Source of the DNA: a virus
DNA: 40,096 nucleotides
Virus record (IMG/VR): IMGVR_UViG_3300037262_000052
Span: 1 to 40,096 of that record
Reading direction: 5' to 3' (one strand)
Positions 5,376-18,428 of the stretch are shown here, one piece after another. The notes under the pieces are model-generated. The model searched no databases, was not told the DNA's origin, and was given only the letters and a program-made list of their open reading frames with translations. Position 1 is the stretch's first letter; the number at the start of each line of letters is the position of its first letter. The position numbers and the translations under genes were made by a program.

Positions 5376-5948
5376 CTAACTCGTCAGCCGCACGAAGGCT
5401 GAGACTCTGAACGTGACCAGCGCCCACGCGCCGTTCTGCTGCTGCTCCTGCGCCAGCCCGATCGGGCCGGCGACCTCCGACCACTGCACGAGGCCGCCCA
5501 TCGTCGAGTCGCCCGGCCCCGTGATCGACCCCGACGGGTTCGGGCCGCCGCGCAGCATGAGCTCCACCGCCGCCATCACCGCGAACGCCCCGCCGCCCGA
5601 CAGGCCGCCGGAGCCCCGGGCGGTCGCCATCACCGCGTCGCCCGACCCGCACTCGGCCGCGCACCGGATCTCGATCTGGTCGTCGCGGGTCCGGGCGTTG
5701 TCGAGGAACGCGAACCCCTGCTCGCTCGAGGCCGCCTCCGACGGGGTCCCGGCGTGCGGCATGCCCTCCGCGCCGACCCACAGCCGCTGCGTCAGCCCGG
5801 CCGGGGAGATGACGAGCTGATCACTGGTCGGCGGCGGCCCGTCCAGCACCAGCACCGCCGGGGACGCCGCCCCCAGGTACGCCGACGCCTGCGCCTGCGC
5901 GACGAGATACGAGATCACGTTCGGGATCAGCTCGGCGGTCATCGTCAC
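5376..5948 (-). CDS. Probable tail terminator / minor tail protein
   Basis: The 190-residue protein starts at GTG 5948, overlapping the upstream stop, with ATG 5942 as an alternative two codons in. It opens with a helix (LIPNVISYLVAQA), then has strand-rich sequence with the phrase QLVISPAGLTQRLWVG, a DQIEIRCAAECGSGD segment and a C-terminal strand ending VTFRVSAFVRL. This pattern and the position just before the major tail gene suit tail terminator proteins, which cap the finished tail and join it to the head. The identification rests on context plus overall composition. Confidence 0.65.
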   Translation of the reverse strand: MTMTAELIPNVISYLVAQAQASAYLGAASPAVLVLDGPPPTSDQLVISPAGLTQRLWVGAEGMPHAGTPSEAASSEQGFAFLDNARTRDDQIEIRCAAECGSGDAVMATARGSGGLSGGGAFAVMAAVELMLRGGPNPSGSITGPGDSTMGGLVQWSEVAGPIGLAQEQQQNGAWALVTFRVSAFVRLTS

Positions 5949-12370: not shown

Positions 12371-12763
12371 CTACTTGTACTGCTCGTGGTGCGCGGTGCC
12401 GTTGTGCGGCTTGTGGGCCGCCTTCGCCGTCTTGGCCTGCTTCGGCGCCCCCGAACGCGAGGCGGCCGGCGCGGTCTTCTTCTCGTAGCCGTCCGGCTTC
12501 TCGGCGGTCGTCTTCTTCTCGGCCGTCGCCTTGTCGGCGTGGTCGGCCCGCTTCGCCCCGGCCCGCTCCCTGGCCTTGCCGGCCGCCGTCTCCTTGCGCT
12601 CGCGCGCGTGCTCGCCGGCGTGCTCGTGAGCCTTCTTCTTGTCCTCGGCCTTCAGCCGGGCCCTGGCCGCCCTCGACATCCGGTGCGGCTTGTGGCGGTC
12701 CTTCGCCTTGTGCGCCGTCTTCGCCGTGTGATGCCACCGGACGGCCTCGAAGTCGGGGATCAT
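12371..12763 (-). CDS. Lys/Ala/His-rich basic protein, unknown function
   Basis: The 130-residue protein starts at ATG 12763, overlapping the portal stop as ATGA. After a short N-terminus (MIPDFEAVRWHH) it is a highly charged repetitive sequence of Ala, Lys, His, Glu and Arg, resembling histone-tail or nucleoid-protein composition. No domain is recognisable. A basic protein between portal and protease could be a scaffold-like or DNA-contacting head protein, but that is only inference. The same frame stays open far upstream across the portal gene, and that extension is a shadow. Confidence 0.7.
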   Translation of the reverse strand: MIPDFEAVRWHHTAKTAHKAKDRHKPHRMSRAARARLKAEDKKKAHEHAGEHARERKETAAGKARERAGAKRADHADKATAEKKTTAEKPDGYEKKTAPAASRSGAPKQAKTAKAAHKPHNGTAHHEQYK

Positions 12764-13954
12764 TCGCCCTGCCTGACGGGCAGCACCGGCGGCGGCGTCG
12801 GCGTCACCAGCGCGTCGATCTCCGCCTTCTGCGCGGCCGTCAGCGGCGCGTAGTCCTCCATCTCCCGCATCTCGTCCTGCGTGAACATCCGCGACCCGAT
12901 CCCCATGTGGTAGGCCGTGAACCGGCTCAGCAGGTCCGTCCGCAGCAGCGGCGACGCGTCCAGCTTCACGTACTGGCCCCGCGGAACGAACTCCGTCAGC
13001 CACTCCTCCTGCTGGATCATGTGCGGCGTCATCGGGTACGTCAGGAAGTCGATCTGCGACTGCTCCACGTTCTGGTAGGTGAGGCTCGACCCGGCCACCC
13101 CGTAGCCGAACAGCACCGGGTTGTTGCCGAAGAACCGGCAGATGTCCGCGCCCTTCGCCTCGATCACCGCCAGAAACTGGGAGTCCTGCGGGCTCACCTG
13201 AATCTGGGAGTAGTCCCAGCCGCCGCCCATCACCACCGGCGCCCTGCTGCCGCTCGTCGCGGCCAGGAACGCCTCCTTGATCCGGCTCGCCTGATCCTGG
13301 CTGATCCGGTTCGCGTTCTTGTTCGTCAGCAAACCGGACGGGTGGCCGCCGTCCTGGAAAAACGACAGGCCGAACTGCTCCGCCGACTGCGCCGTCATCG
13401 TCGACTTGCTCGCGTACTGGATCGCCGACATCCCCACCCGCGACCCCGGCATCCGGTTGACCGCCCGGTGCCACAGCACCGACGGGTCGATCACCTCGTT
13501 CCGCAGCCGGTACTCGTAGCTGCCGTCGCCGAGCTTGCGGACCCTCACCTGGTCGGGATGCTGGAGCTCGACCTGAGTCGGGTACCCGAGGCGGTCGCGG
13601 TCCAGGATCAGCCCGTAGGCGTTGCCGCGCAGCAGCAGCGACACCCACTCCATGTACGTCCACGCGAACATCCCCGCGTCCGACGCGGGCCTGATCAGCA
13701 TGTCCGGGACGGTCGTCTTCACCGCCTGGCCCGCGTTGCCCGGGCCCGGCCCGCGGTACGTCTGCGGGCGCATCATCGCCATGCTGCCCGCGATCCGGTT
13801 CACGTTCGCCCACACCGCCGAGTTGCGCATCGCGCCCTCGGGGTCGCCCGCCGACCGGTCCTGCAGCGCCTGAGTGTAAATAGGCCCCAACGGGTGGACT
13901 AATGAACGTGAGCGCGCGTCGCTCGCGCTGACCAGTGTTTACGAAGATTCCCAT
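12760..13954 (-). CDS. Portal protein, apparent +1 frameshift near the N-terminus
   Basis: The main frame (from about 13890 to 12760) has HK97-type portal features: RNSAVWANVNRIAGSMAMM, VSLLLRGNAYGLILD, VLWHRAV, a GLLTNKN segment and FFGNNPVLFGYG. The proper N-terminus lies in another frame: ATG 13954 after GGGGGAGGTGAGG, reading MGIFVNTGQRERRALTFISP, which is how actinophage portals begin. The main frame has a stop just after that ATG and only a TTG (13890) to start from. The span is 1195 bases, one more than a multiple of three. Removing one G from the GGGG around 13885-13888 joins the parts into 397 residues. Sequencing error, mutation or recoding are all possible. Confidence 0.82.
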
Positions 13955-13974
13955 GGAGAAGGCCTCACCTCCCC

Positions 13975-13980
13975 CTACAA
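13975..13980. repeat. Direct repeat ctacaa flanking HNH gene (copy 1)
   Basis: The six bases ctacaa occur here and at 14553-14558 on either side of the plus-strand HNH gene. Recombination between them would join the membrane-protein stop TAG directly to the portal ribosome site GGGGGAGGTGAG. The second copy overlaps that stop codon. Confidence 0.5.
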
Positions 13981-14537
13981 TGGTGCCTATGTGTTCCATC
14001 GAAGGTTGCGGCAAGCCGCTCGAAGCCAAGGGCTACTGCAAGGCGCACTACCGGAAGTTCAAGCTCTACGGTGACCCGCTGGCCGGCCGGACGAAGCGCC
14101 CGAGCGGCCTGTGCGAGGTCGAAGGATGCGCCGAGCAGGCACGGCGCTGGGGTCTGTGCTCGTCGCACTCTCGCGCGCTGCGCACCCACGGAGACCCGAC
14201 AGTGCGGGTGCGGCGCGTGCGCGGCACCGGAACCATCCGAGCCGACGGGTACGTCACCATCGGAGCACGGCACCCGCTGGCGGACAAGCGGGGGCTGGTC
14301 TACCTGCACCGCATGGTGCTGTACGACGCGATCGGCCCCGGCCCGCACCGCTGCCACTGGTGCGGCAAGAAAGTACGCTGGCTGATCGGCATGGGGCCTG
14401 CGGCAGATGGCGCGCTGAACGTGGATCATCTCGACTTCAACCCGTCGAACAATGACCCGTCCAACCTCGTCCCGGCCTGCAACTTCTGCAACTCCCAGCG
14501 ACACCAGCGTGCAGGAAACCTACAAAGCCAAGAATGA
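13980..14537 (+). CDS. HNH homing-type endonuclease with zinc-finger repeats
   Basis: It is one of the few plus-strand genes and faces against the late operon. I chose ATG 13980 (ATG 13989 is possible), because earlier in-frame starts would overlap the portal start and have no ribosome site. Two copies of a CxxxGCxxxxxxxGxCxxHxR motif (about residues 4-60) resemble DNA-binding zinc fingers. The nuclease domain has HRCHWCGKK, then NVDHLDFNPSNN and VPACNFCNSQR, an HNH core with two Cys pairs. Such free-standing nucleases cut DNA lacking the insertion and spread by repair. Length is about 185 residues. Confidence 0.8.
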   Translation: MVPMCSIEGCGKPLEAKGYCKAHYRKFKLYGDPLAGRTKRPSGLCEVEGCAEQARRWGLCSSHSRALRTHGDPTVRVRRVRGTGTIRADGYVTIGARHPLADKRGLVYLHRMVLYDAIGPGPHRCHWCGKKVRWLIGMGPAADGALNVDHLDFNPSNNDPSNLVPACNFCNSQRHQRAGNLQSQE

Positions 14538-14552
14538 CACATTGTAGGTCTT

Positions 14553-14828
14553 CTACAAGCCTTCAGGATCACGCGGCGCAGACTTCGGCGCCCTGTTGAT
14601 CTCGTAGCCGACCCACATCAGAAGCACCCCGGCCGTCAGCAGCGCCACCCACGGCGCCAGGTGATGACCGAACACATGCCCGGCCACCTCGCCCAGGCCG
14701 ACCGACACCGCCGCCGCCCCGGCGATGCCCGGCAGCGCCCGGCCGGGGCCGCGGACGATCCGGACCACCGTGCCGGCGACCTTCGCGGCGCGGATCGCCA
14801 GGCGGAGGCGAAGGTCAGCCCTTGACAT
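14553..14828 (-). CDS. Small membrane protein, two segments
   Basis: The start is ATG 14828, overlapping the previous gene's stop by 14 bases. An earlier in-frame ATG at 14909 would bury the start deep in that gene. The 91-residue protein has a basic N-terminus, a hydrophobic Ala/Val/Gly segment (about 33-52) and a stronger one (about 60-78, WVALLTAGVLLMWVGY), then a polar end. It lies between large terminase and portal. Function unknown. The portal would directly follow it if the HNH gene were absent. Confidence 0.65.
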   Translation of the reverse strand: MSRADLRLRLAIRAAKVAGTVVRIVRGPGRALPGIAGAAAVSVGLGEVAGHVFGHHLAPWVALLTAGVLLMWVGYEINRAPKSAPRDPEGL

Positions 14829-15030
14829 CGGCGCCCGCGCCCAAGATGTCATTGCGGATGAACTCCTCGGCGGCATTCTCGGTCTGGAATCCCATGTCGA
14901 GATGATCAACCATCCCCGGGAGCTGGATAAACACGCGCCACGGGAACTGCGCGTTATAGCCGGGCTCGTCCTCGGCCAGCCGGTCGGCGAACCAGTAGTT
15001 GCCGCGAGGGTGATCGCCGGTCTTGCTCAC
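14815..15030 (-). CDS. Hypothetical 71-residue protein
   Basis: The protein follows the large terminase with a four-base overlap. It has GNYWFADRLAEDEPGYNAQFPWRVFIQLPG followed by a helical FQTENAAEEFIRNDILG end, looking like a small mixed alpha/beta fold with aromatic residues. Coupling suggests it is made with the terminase. No function is recognised. Confidence 0.7.
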   Translation of the reverse strand: MSKTGDHPRGNYWFADRLAEDEPGYNAQFPWRVFIQLPGMVDHLDMGFQTENAAEEFIRNDILGAGADVKG

Positions 15031-16616
15031 CAGAATGTGTCCTCAATGCTCGTCACCTGGGACAGGGTCCAGATCCCCATGCACATCGCCACCGCTCCGT
15101 CGATCTTCCACCGCGACTTGTTCTTCGACAACGTGAACCCCCGCTCCTGCTGCTTCTTCACCGCGCTCCGCACATGCCGCGACAACTCCTTATCACCGGC
15201 GTGCACGATCCGCTTCCGGATAATCCGGTCGAACGCCTCCCCGGTCGCCTTCACCATCGTCACCCACTGGTCGAACTCGATGACCGTCAGGTCGTCCTCG
15301 TCCTCCAGCTCCCGCGCCGCCAGCTCGAAATAGCGCGGGTCGTACGTCACCGCCGCCAGCCGGCCGCCCAGCTCGCGCGCCCGGTCCTTGATGTACTGGA
15401 AAACCTCCTTGTGGTCGACCTTGCCGTCGCCCGGGTTCCAGATCCTCGCCGTCACCGCGATCCGGCCGTCTTCCAGCTCCGTGCACTCCACCACCGCCGT
15501 CGAGTCCCGCTTCAGCGACATGTCGATGGCGATCACGACCTGCTCGTCGCCGTTCAGCCCCCACTTGCCCTCGCACTCGCCCCACGCGGCCGGGTGATCG
15601 GCCAGCCACGACTCCTCCGCGACGTCCACCCACCGGTTCGCGTAGTAGCGGATCCACTCATGCGACTGCACGCCCGGCTTGTCCCACTCCCTCACCCGCG
15701 CCTCCACGTCCCACAGCACCCCTGCCGCCTCGCTCGCCGCCCGCACCGCGATCCGCCGGTGCTCCGGGTTCGCGTAGTCCAGGCCCTCGGGCGCCTCGTG
15801 CCAGTCGAGCAGCAGCCGCGGCGCCAGCGACGGGTCGTGGGCCGCCCGCTTCCCGTGCAGGTACATCGCGCCCAGCAGGCTCATGTCGACGTCGAAGCCA
15901 GCGGTGGAAATCCCCAGCTTGCGGCCCGCCCCCCGGCTTACGGTCTTGAATCCGCCGCCCTGCAGCGGAATGCGGCACTGAAGACGCCGCTTCGTCGTGC
16001 TCTTCCCGATGACCATGTGCACGCGGGCCTTGCCGCTGCCGAGCTCCCCCCACTCGTGCAGCTCGTCGCCGACGAACAGACTGGGCAGGCCGCCCTCGTT
16101 CGTGCCCGCGACCGCCGCCACCCGGCGCATCACCCCCGGCCGGCCGTCGGAGAACCGGATCTCGGTGTCGTAGACCTCCGCGTAGCCGCACAGCGGGGCG
16201 TCCGCCATGATCTGGTCACGGCCCCCCACCATCAGGCCCGCCGTCCCGAACAGCAGGTCCGCCTGCTCGAACGACGCGGCCGCGTTCACGATGTTCGGCG
16301 ACAGCGGCGCGATCTGCGGCGGCCCGAACATCTCCAGGCACTGGATCGCCGCCACGAACGTCGTCTTCCCGTCGCCCGTCGCCGCCCCCCGCAGCGCCTC
16401 GTCATACCGCCAGTACCAGCACCGGCCGCAGTACTCGTACCAGCGCATCAGGAACAGCTTCTGGTCCTTCCGCAGCCGCACCGGCTGCCCGTACCAGTCG
16501 CCCTCGCCGAGGACGAGGTACTTCTCGATCCACCTCACCGCCAGCGCGCCCTCAGACGGCCACAGCGCCCCCGGCGAAGGCGCCCAGCCGCAGTCAGGGC
16601 AGCCCGGGTCAGCCAT
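15027..16616 (-). CDS. terL: Large terminase subunit
   Basis: The packaging ATPase-nuclease has, numbered from the upstream TTG at 16634, a Walker A ATGDGKTT (85-92), a Walker B SLFVGDELHEW (185-195) and a C-terminal RuvC-like nuclease with likely acidic residues D371 (AIDMSLKRD), D432 (YDPRYF) and D512 (IDGAVA). ATG 16616, inside the overlapping stop of the small HTH gene, is the most probable start. TTG 16634 would add six residues. At about 529 residues it is of usual length. The enzyme pumps DNA into the prohead through the portal and makes the cuts that end each packaged genome. Confidence 0.93.
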   Translation of the reverse strand: MADPGCPDCGWAPSPGALWPSEGALAVRWIEKYLVLGEGDWYGQPVRLRKDQKLFLMRWYEYCGRCWYWRYDEALRGAATGDGKTTFVAAIQCLEMFGPPQIAPLSPNIVNAAASFEQADLLFGTAGLMVGGRDQIMADAPLCGYAEVYDTEIRFSDGRPGVMRRVAAVAGTNEGGLPSLFVGDELHEWGELGSGKARVHMVIGKSTTKRRLQCRIPLQGGGFKTVSRGAGRKLGISTAGFDVDMSLLGAMYLHGKRAAHDPSLAPRLLLDWHEAPEGLDYANPEHRRIAVRAASEAAGVLWDVEARVREWDKPGVQSHEWIRYYANRWVDVAEESWLADHPAAWGECEGKWGLNGDEQVVIAIDMSLKRDSTAVVECTELEDGRIAVTARIWNPGDGKVDHKEVFQYIKDRARELGGRLAAVTYDPRYFELAARELEDEDDLTVIEFDQWVTMVKATGEAFDRIIRKRIVHAGDKELSRHVRSAVKKQQERGFTLSKNKSRWKIDGAVAMCMGIWTLSQVTSIEDTFW

Positions 16617-16827
16617 TGGCGGCGATCCGGTCAATCGTCGTGCGCGCGATGCCGGTGATCACGTGGATGCGGTGCTTGCTGACGCCAAGCCGGATCGCCT
16701 GCCGGACAAGATCATCACGACGCCCGTTCTGCTCGGCCCAGTCCGCCAAGTCGATCTCAGCCGCGTGCTGCTTGCGCCACTCATCGCGGGTCTGGCCTGA
16801 CTCAGCCAAGCCGGGGGTCTGGCTCAT
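16609..16827 (-). CDS. Small helix-turn-helix protein between terminase genes
   Basis: The 72-residue protein overlaps both terminase genes by 8-26 bases. The C-terminal half reads DLVRQAIRLGVSKHRIHVITGIARTTIDRI, a clear helix-turn-helix of the kind found in resolvases and small terminase DNA-binding domains. The annotated small terminase lacks an obvious HTH. This protein could therefore supply the sequence-specific DNA recognition in packaging, or act as a regulator. That idea is inference from position and motif. Confidence 0.75.
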   Translation of the reverse strand: MSQTPGLAESGQTRDEWRKQHAAEIDLADWAEQNGRRDDLVRQAIRLGVSKHRIHVITGIARTTIDRIAANG

Positions 16828-17278: not shown

Positions 17279-17646
17279 AACCCGCGCCTCGCCTCAGCGC
17301 GCCGCGCCTCAGCGCGCCGCGCCAGCTCGGCGGCCGGCGCGGAGAGCCGCACGAACCGCGCCCCGGCGCGGTAATAGCACTCGCCGCGGTGCGCCGTCGG
17401 GGCCGTGTCGACGATCCACGCCCGCGCGCCGCGGCAGTGCCAGGTGATGGCCTCCTGCACGGCCGGCCACCACGCGGCCCGGGTCACCGCCCGGACGGCC
17501 CGCGGGTGATCATGGGAATCGGGCGAGCCCAGCGCCTGCGCGATGACGTCGAAGTCGATCACGACGTCGCCCGGCCGGGCGCGCTCGCGCACGTACGTGC
17601 TCTTGCCCGAGCACGGAGGTCCGGTCACGACGGTCAGCATGGTCAC
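17176..17646 (-). CDS. P-loop kinase-like protein
   Basis: The 156-residue protein has a classic Walker A, TGPPCSGKST, at residues 8-17, followed by VIDFDVIAQALG and a later WIVDTAP strand. This resembles small polynucleotide or nucleotide kinases that phages place near terminase genes. The last ~35 residues are Arg/Ala-rich and overlap the small terminase by 103 bases. A 15-bp tandem duplication (17291-17320) lies just before that end, so the C-terminus may have been altered or extended. Substrate unknown; nucleic-acid end repair or nucleotide phosphorylation would fit. Confidence 0.75.
   Translation of the reverse strand: MTMLTVVTGPPCSGKSTYVRERARPGDVVIDFDVIAQALGSPDSHDHPRAVRAVTRAAWWPAVQEAITWHCRGARAWIVDTAPTAHRGECYYRAGARFVRLSAPAAELARRAEARRAEARRGLCPARRSRRARPSTGATAAAPSWRARRWRSSRCR
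17291..17320. repeat. 15-bp perfect tandem duplication
   Basis: Two identical 15-base units (17291-17305 and 17306-17320) encode a repeated Arg-Arg-Ala-Glu-Ala in the kinase-like protein just before its overlap with the small terminase. Confidence 0.85.
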
Positions 17647-17840
17647 ACCCCGCTATTTCCTACTAAACTATAGGGAATTGATTCGGCTACGCAGGGTGGT
17701 CAGCCCTGGCAAAAAAACGACGTTTCGAGGTACCACGGCAAAAGTTTCGGGGCGAGCGGGTCATGCAGCATCTGAAATCCTAAAAGATACATATGTACCG
17801 CAATGTCCGATATTACTGTGCGTACTCACATACATGGTCA
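17647..17840. other. A+T-rich 194-bp spacer upstream of packaging genes
   Basis: This stretch is clearly more A+T-rich than its surroundings and holds no gene. On the minus strand a TTTTTTT run (about 17712-17718) could belong to a weak terminator after the HNH gene. A TATAGT box near 17672 lies at a suitable distance from the kinase start for a promoter of the late operon. Neither is strong. It is also a possible location for the packaging recognition site. Confidence 0.4.
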
Positions 17841-18428
17841 TCACCCGATCAACATGAGTTGCTCACCACTACCGCGATTGTTCTTGGCTAGATTGCATCG
17901 GTAGTGAGCAAGCTGGACGTTTGTAAGCTCATGTAGGCCGCCTCGACTGAGCGGAATGATGTGGTCGATGCTCGCTCGCATTGGACCACGTAGCGCCTTG
18001 ACCTGCTTGCGGCAGATGCCGCAGCGACGGTGATCGCGTCGTATGAGATAGCCGAGCAGCATCGGATTGCTGCTTAGGCCGAGGCTGTCTGCTCGCCTTG
18101 CGTGCGCCGCGCTGAGTACACGGTCTCTGAACGATTGGCTGGTTGCGTAGCGATTGATGATGGATTGCTTGAGTGACTGGTAAGCGCAGTCGTCGCCACA
18201 GTTCTTACGGTTCGCGTGTCGCGCGACGAACAGCTTGCCGCAGTTGGCGCAGTTGCGATAGTTGATCTTGCTCGTAGGCCAGATCCGTCGCGGCGGGCCG
18301 CCGTATCCATCGTGCTCGGCACGCCTGAGCGTCACGCCGCACGAGCGACCGCAGGTGCGCTGAGCGCCATACGTCGGCCGGTATTCTGCGCCGCAGATCT
18401 CGCAGTTTCGCGGACGACGGCGACTCAT
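17841..18428 (-). CDS. HNH endonuclease with three zinc-binding motifs
   Basis: The 195-residue protein has a CEICG...CGRSC pair (residues 9-30), a CANCGKLF...CGDDC pair (about 60-82) and a C-terminal HNH core: CGICRKQ, DHIIPLSRGG and NVQLAHYRCNLAKNN. It is more A+T-rich than the genes around it, a sign of recent gain. The start overlaps the upstream HNH gene stop as ATGA. It is likely a homing-type nuclease. HNH proteins beside terminases can also take part in packaging, so that role remains open. Confidence 0.82.
   Translation of the reverse strand: MSRRRPRNCEICGAEYRPTYGAQRTCGRSCGVTLRRAEHDGYGGPPRRIWPTSKINYRNCANCGKLFVARHANRKNCGDDCAYQSLKQSIINRYATSQSFRDRVLSAAHARRADSLGLSSNPMLLGYLIRRDHRRCGICRKQVKALRGPMRASIDHIIPLSRGGLHELTNVQLAHYRCNLAKNNRGSGEQLMLIG

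Follow-up and report, generated by a model that had tools for sequence, protein, structure and literature searches.

A contig of 40,096 nucleotides from a virus (IMG/VR record IMGVR_UViG_3300037262_000052), referred to here as the window, carries a free-standing HNH endonuclease gene beside a portal gene whose reading frame is broken by a 4-nt insertion. Our analysis makes it fairly probable that the HNH gene and the insertion belong together as a single mobile cassette, resembling MobA and gene 60 of phage T4. The linkage between them is the interesting finding, as it suggests a selfish gene that travels with a recoding insertion hiding its own cutting site.

The portal gene lies on the minus strand. 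Its ribosome-binding site (GGGGGAGGTGAG, positions 13,964–13,975, minus strand) adjoins the oppositely directed start region of the HNH gene, and the equivalent in two related contigs, L097 and L098, reads GGAGGTGATG. An N-terminal part of 25 codons in frame 0 (MGIFVNTGQRERRALTFISPPVGAY, 13,880–13,954, minus strand), which matches the relatives' ERRMLTFISPPVGAY N-terminus, precedes a body of 372 aa whose frame is +1 with respect to that part (12,760–13,878, minus strand). The body begins with YTQALQD, matches Pfam Phage_portal (E=7e-59) and PHROG 12 (E=2e-63) and is 60–74% identical to relatives. At portal codons 25–26, four additional nucleotides place the conserved N-terminus and the body in different frames. 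The insertion site (13,876–13,882, minus strand) consists of TAT (13,880–13,882), the proposed take-off codon, a single T (13,879) and TAC (13,876–13,878), the proposed landing codon, so that the window reads GCC TAT T TAC ACT CAG, compared with GCG TAC ACG CAG in HNH-less relatives. A contig with an HNH remnant, L078, has CCT TAT T TAC ACG at this position, L097 has GCT TAC T TAC ACG and L098 has GCG TAC T TAC ACG; take-off and landing codons are thus TAT/TAC in the window and L078, and TAC/TAC in L097 and L098. A hop between the two Tyr codons would yield GAYTQ or GPYTQ, the same as in the relatives' protein. In the window, the frame-0 codon after TAT is UUA (13,877–13,879), and every one of the four carriers has UUA directly after its take-off codon. 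This codon is otherwise very rare: nine window genes, comprising about 4,500 codons, contain no TTA, and the relatives' terL, portal and MCP genes use UUA for 10 of their 6154 Leu codons. The preliminary description of this DNA had overlooked the linked frame-breaking insertion, about 100 bases away from the HNH gene. We also observed a +7 insertion (CAA-TTAG-CAC) that contains UUA and lies 6 nt downstream of the +4 site in contig L067 (1935–1960); no HNH gene was found in the gap of that contig.

Relatives were collected through their portal and terminase proteins. When distinct portals with the upstream region covered were counted, relatedness being ignored, all four genomes with HNH sequence in the gap (the window, L097, L098 and the remnant in L078) had the +4 insertion, compared with 0 of 40 HNH-less relatives (Fisher p=7.4e-6), and no mixed class was seen. 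The known carriers number four, one being a remnant, and the other three contigs are metagenomic. The +4 portal site has the pattern form GGNNCNTANNTACACNCAGG; when 2.9 million viral contigs (IMG/VR) were scanned with any two bases permitted between TA and TACAC, the inserted site was recovered in L078, L097 and L098 only, all three HNH-bearing (L078 as a remnant). A further pattern match, in L092 (TATTTACA), was rejected as a chance occurrence in an unrelated AT-rich contig. Among 396 bacterial genomes, the inserted-site pattern was absent and a distant portal was present in three. The HNH orthologues of L097 (72% identical) and L098 (70%) occupy the same place and strand as in the window, and L078 retains a 21-aa HNH remnant, 86% identical and antisense at the same place, together with an intact insertion. 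Occupied and unoccupied alleles of one site therefore exist among related genomes.

Because the linkage count ignores relatedness, the portal tree matters. The carriers occupy three distinct positions in it, and the branches with good support require three changes, which can be independent gains or one gain with losses. Comparing the window with L097, identity is 72% for HNH, 63% for portal, 41% for the membrane-protein gene and 26% for terL. The N-terminal parts of the carriers' portals follow their own lineage and not the HNH gene, with no visible shared co-conversion tract.

The HNH gene itself (13,989–14,537, plus strand; a second possible in-frame ATG stands at 13,980) encodes 182 aa, with two Cys/His modules followed by a C-terminal HNH domain. 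It is antisense to the packaging operon and is flanked by two minus-strand genes, the portal and a small membrane-protein gene (14,553–14,828). The latter is conserved between terL and portal in L009–L014, L019, L064 and others, and a related gene with weak similarity (E about 0.01 and 0.001) stands at the same place in L097 and L098. The terminase large subunit is the upstream neighbour (15,027–16,634, minus strand; PHROG 9, E=3e-53). Codon use and G+C, the check proposed in the preliminary description, set the insert apart: the gene has a GC of 0.665 and a GC3 of 0.82, compared with GC3 values of 0.94–0.98 in large structural genes such as portal and terL. The protein matches the HNH endonuclease families PHROG 1271 and 9443 (E=1e-20 and 9e-19), and a match to Pfam HNH_3 (E=5e-4) was below cutoff. 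In the family alignment, the catalytic motif and zinc-binding cysteines are present, with D146, H147, N159, C122/C125, C164/C167 and N168 conserved. A fold search with the AlphaFold model (pLDDT 86) gave I-HmuI (PDB 1u3e) as top match (E=0.056, probability 0.99, TM about 0.3), so that, as modelled, the best structural match of the protein is an HNH homing nuclease fold; I-HmuI, however, is intron-encoded, while the window HNH is a free-standing gene with different N-terminal Cys/His modules. Compared with the DNA of annotated phages, the region gave no match, and bacterial genomes yielded one HNH relative (40%).

In many relatives the upstream gene and the portal meet at the same junction, but the HNH gene is missing from it. 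Together with the different composition and a nearest solved fold of I-HmuI, these junctions support the view, already taken in the preliminary description, that HNH is an extra gene of homing type between operon genes. The packaging-associated HNH, which lies on the operon strand beside the small terminase gene, was considered as an identity for this gene and rejected, since it is antisense before the portal instead. A second HNH gene in the window (17,841–18,428, minus strand), on the same strand as the operon, upstream of a terS-like gene and with homologues at that position in L014, L179 (52%) and others, looks like the usual packaging-associated one; beside it, at 17,600–17,899, local G+C falls to 0.51. 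In contig L034 (571–1123), an HNH relative (41%) is antisense between terS and terL, with a stop codon built from DNA of the terS 3' end, and no frame break was found in the genes neighbouring it.

The preliminary description had gone further and pictured a recent, precise insertion bracketed by repeats. Both repeats are present, at slightly different coordinates from those first given: a CTACAA direct repeat at 13,975–13,980 and 14,553–14,558, of which a third copy inside the gene (14,520) had been missed, and a 9-bp inverted repeat, CCTACAATG at 13,974–13,982 and CATTGTAGG at 14,540–14,548. When the two 50-bp flanks were shuffled, 31% of the shuffles (P~0.3) contained a direct repeat of at least 6 bp and 0.4% an inverted repeat of at least 9 bp; the 6-bp direct repeat is at chance level and the inverted repeat alone is unusual. 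CTACAA and the inverted pair are both absent in L097 and L098, which have homologous HNH genes at this very place, an outcome that the preliminary description had itself named as refuting. An insertion element with terminal repeats or a target duplication, that is, with transposon-like ends, was thus rejected, as the repeats are missing from other copies and the direct repeat is no more than chance-level.

The two arms of the inverted repeat have separate explanations. The 40 kb contain just two copies of TACAAT, one on each strand (13,976 and 14,541), exactly at both ends of the HNH gene. The left arm coincides with a conserved -10-like box (TACAAT, 13,976–13,981, plus strand) 7 nt before the HNH ATG, a leaderless-type start that both orthologues have (TACAATGGTGCCTATG in the window, TACAATGGGGCGTATG in L097 and L098) and that would serve as a leaderless-type promoter for the gene. 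The right arm (14,540–14,548, CCTACAATG on the minus strand) is specific to the window and is absent from L097, L098 and L078. In these three contigs the stop codons of the HNH gene and of its upstream neighbour share bases, and the orthologues end in RHRS or RHGH; the window HNH has 8 extra residues plus 15 nt, containing the right arm, which look like retained spacer. The TACAAT within it may be a promoter for genes of the portal strand. We conclude that the repeats are not the ends of the element.

The predicted empty site fared similarly. With the flanks joined, the TAG of the membrane gene and the ATG of the portal would stand 21 nt apart, close to the 25 first noted, but this joint is unmatched in relatives: the spacers of HNH-less junctions are 15, 58, 65, 73 and 75 nt long, mutually unlike, and none matches it, which leaves a precise insertion unsupported. 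Recency is likewise unsupported, given orthologues no more than 70–72% identical at the same site and the remnant in L078. Overall, the invading homing-type gene stands, while its recency, its precision and the role of the repeats do not. The membrane-gene/portal junction seems prone to small indels. In L019 (about 5540–5580), a deletion of ~20 nt relative to L010 takes out the portal start region, and in L072 and L073 a different, sense-strand extra ORF (beginning MTDPLAEYFAARADLRLP) seems to fill the same gap.

The interrupted portal gene shows signs of continued function. All carriers have a start codon, a conserved TFISPPVGAY-like end of the N-terminal part and, in the contigs that extend over it, a long open body. 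The frame-0 N-terminal parts of L097 and L098, compared over 40 codons, differ at 12 nt, 9 of them third positions (dN 0.029, dS 0.36), and the N-terminal part remains under purifying selection. Selection on the portal body of the same pair is weaker (dN 0.21, dS 0.41), with a ratio still below one. Of the stimulators known for bypassing, a slow codon (UUA) is present, no downstream RNA stem-loop stands out, and the peptide before the insertion is an ordinary portal N-terminus, as in relatives.

From these observations we infer cutting, homing, protection and hopping. The HNH enzyme would most likely nick or cut HNH-less phages at the highly conserved portal sequence GG.GC.TACAC.CAGGC. A co-infecting phage with the HNH gene would then serve as the repair template, and the gene would be copied into the space preceding the portal, as in intronless homing. 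The carrier would be protected, its own cutting site being interrupted by 4 nt (TAY-T-TAC). Since the insertion breaks the frame of the essential portal gene, the carrier would have to recode. UAU and UAC are read by the same tRNA-Tyr. With the very rare UUA in the A site, the ribosome would pause, and peptidyl-tRNA-Tyr could hop from UAU or UAC to the UAC four nucleotides downstream, restoring the wild-type GAY-TQALQD exactly. Ribosomes that hop between matched codons when a slow codon stands in the A site have been described (PMC5009743).

Several other explanations of the locus were weighed against such a cassette. The +4 insertion could be a repair scar of HNH cutting, with a TTAC-like overhang duplicated, a dead portal and no recoding, the genomes being damaged or satellites. 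L097 does read TTACTTAC, a 4-nt tandem duplication, and another indel lies at nearly the same place in L067. The N-terminal part was nevertheless selected after the insertion, the carriers' portal bodies are long and open and the same change is found in several lineages, and we consider a scar unlikely. The broken N-terminus would be of no consequence if carrier portals began internally, for example at the AUG within EGAM, which has a Shine-Dalgarno-like start in the window (GAGGGCGCGATG) and is kept in L097 and L098. This appears very doubtful, as L078 has EGAL and no AUG, and selection still acts on the frame-0 N-terminal part. A sequencing or assembly error, the usual cause of a single frameshift in one metagenomic contig, is largely refuted by the recurrence of the same site in four independent contigs. 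Moreover, a scan of the relatives' terL, portal and MCP matches found no other frame breaks, so the insertion is not assembly noise, and we give this explanation almost no weight.

Other readings accept the insertion and separate it from the HNH gene. A simple homing HNH may have entered between two operon genes next to an unrelated portal insertion, and the HNH-less junctions in many relatives, the atypical GC3 and the homing-like fold would all fit. Perfect co-occurrence in three tree positions and in the collection-wide scan would then be coincidence, which makes this quite unlikely. Alternatively, UUA and the +4 insertion could act as a regulatory switch that adjusts the output of portal protein to the host's tRNA-Leu(UAA), a role proposed for the phiHau3 terminase, with HNH as a hitchhiker. 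UUA is otherwise almost absent, and the phiHau3 terminase has UUA sites with no special HNH, its relatives with uninterrupted terminases having the same packaging HNH. Such a switch does not account for the restriction of the insertion to genomes with HNH sequence, and we judge it to be rather improbable as well. The linked cassette of HNH gene and insertion remains our preferred reading. Points against it are the small number of carriers, the lack of a visible co-conversion tract, the unremarkable downstream RNA and preceding peptide, the weaker selection on the L097/L098 portal body, the potential internal start at EGAM and the +7 insertion of L067. Whether it stands for a wider class is a more tentative matter: G+C-rich phages may possibly harbor selfish cassettes that combine a homing HNH with a minimal +4 recoding insertion hiding its own target in an essential packaging gene, tolerated through a synonymous-codon hop at UUA, with the phiHau3 terminase UUA sites and the +7 insertion of L067 as relatives or remnants. 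The hosts of phages with such cassettes would probably be Actinomycetota.

The nearest known parallel is T4, in which the MobA homing endonuclease accompanies the 50-nt bypass of gene 60 (PMC5009743, PMC3014915; see also the title of Bonocora et al. 2011 on T4 MobA/gene 60, as cited in PMC8300805). As in the window, a free-standing HNH gene there adjoins an essential gene with an untranslated insertion that is thought to shield it from the nuclease and that the ribosome must skip between matched codons. In both cases the nuclease can decay while the insertion stays: T4 mobA is reported to be apparently defective, and L078 keeps only a remnant. The T4 insertion, however, is 50 nt long, whereas ours is 4 nt without stop codon or stem-loop, the proposed take-off here involves the rare UUA, the presumed target is a portal gene and the HNH gene runs antisense from a start box of its own.

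The terminase of Streptomyces phage phiHau3 has been named as a likely case of UUA bypass (PMC5009743). There and in prophage StrepC.1, a +1 mod 3 insertion likewise interrupts a packaging gene in a strongly conserved stretch, with a codon X, UUA and a synonymous codon X' in order: GGC-TTACTCC-GGT (+10) and, at a second site, TCT-TTAACGG-TCC (+10). These insertions differ from ours in measuring 10 nt and in lying in the terminase. We found the phiHau3 and GreenWeasel terminases to have two such UUA-type 10-nt insertions (L243, 2602–2640 and 2915–2955; also L244 and L245), while the BroPlease terminase aligns in two pieces, not three, and seems to be without the second; the insertions may come and go separately. 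No HNH gene tracks with the phiHau3 UUA sites, and a link to the gp1 HNH was rejected because gp1 also occurs in insertion-free relatives. A candidate common rule, read from the few cases at hand, would be a codon X, UUA and a codon X' sharing two bases, with a net shift of +1.

A free-standing gene between operon genes that cuts a neighbouring conserved gene is also a feature of the intronless homing endonucleases of T-even phages. To our knowledge, none of these leaves its carrier's target gene frame-broken. SegF, SegG and MobE are examples (PMC2988022). In Cluster O mycobacteriophages, an HNH insertion lies before the tape-measure gene, and the authors considered bypassing (PMC4351075). This is again an HNH insertion beside a structural gene that then needs a non-canonical translation step, but there the start codon is lost, and a linked in-gene insertion was not described.

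T4 gene 60 is the one case known to us in which a homing endonuclease has been firmly tied to bypassing by the ribosome. If the cassette described here is real, it would be a second, independent pairing, found in three lineages, in which 4 nt are enough, and protective recoded insertions could be a general route for selfish nucleases into essential genes. It would also offer a small, concrete test system for the question of UUA-dependent bypassing in Streptomyces phages (PMC5009743).
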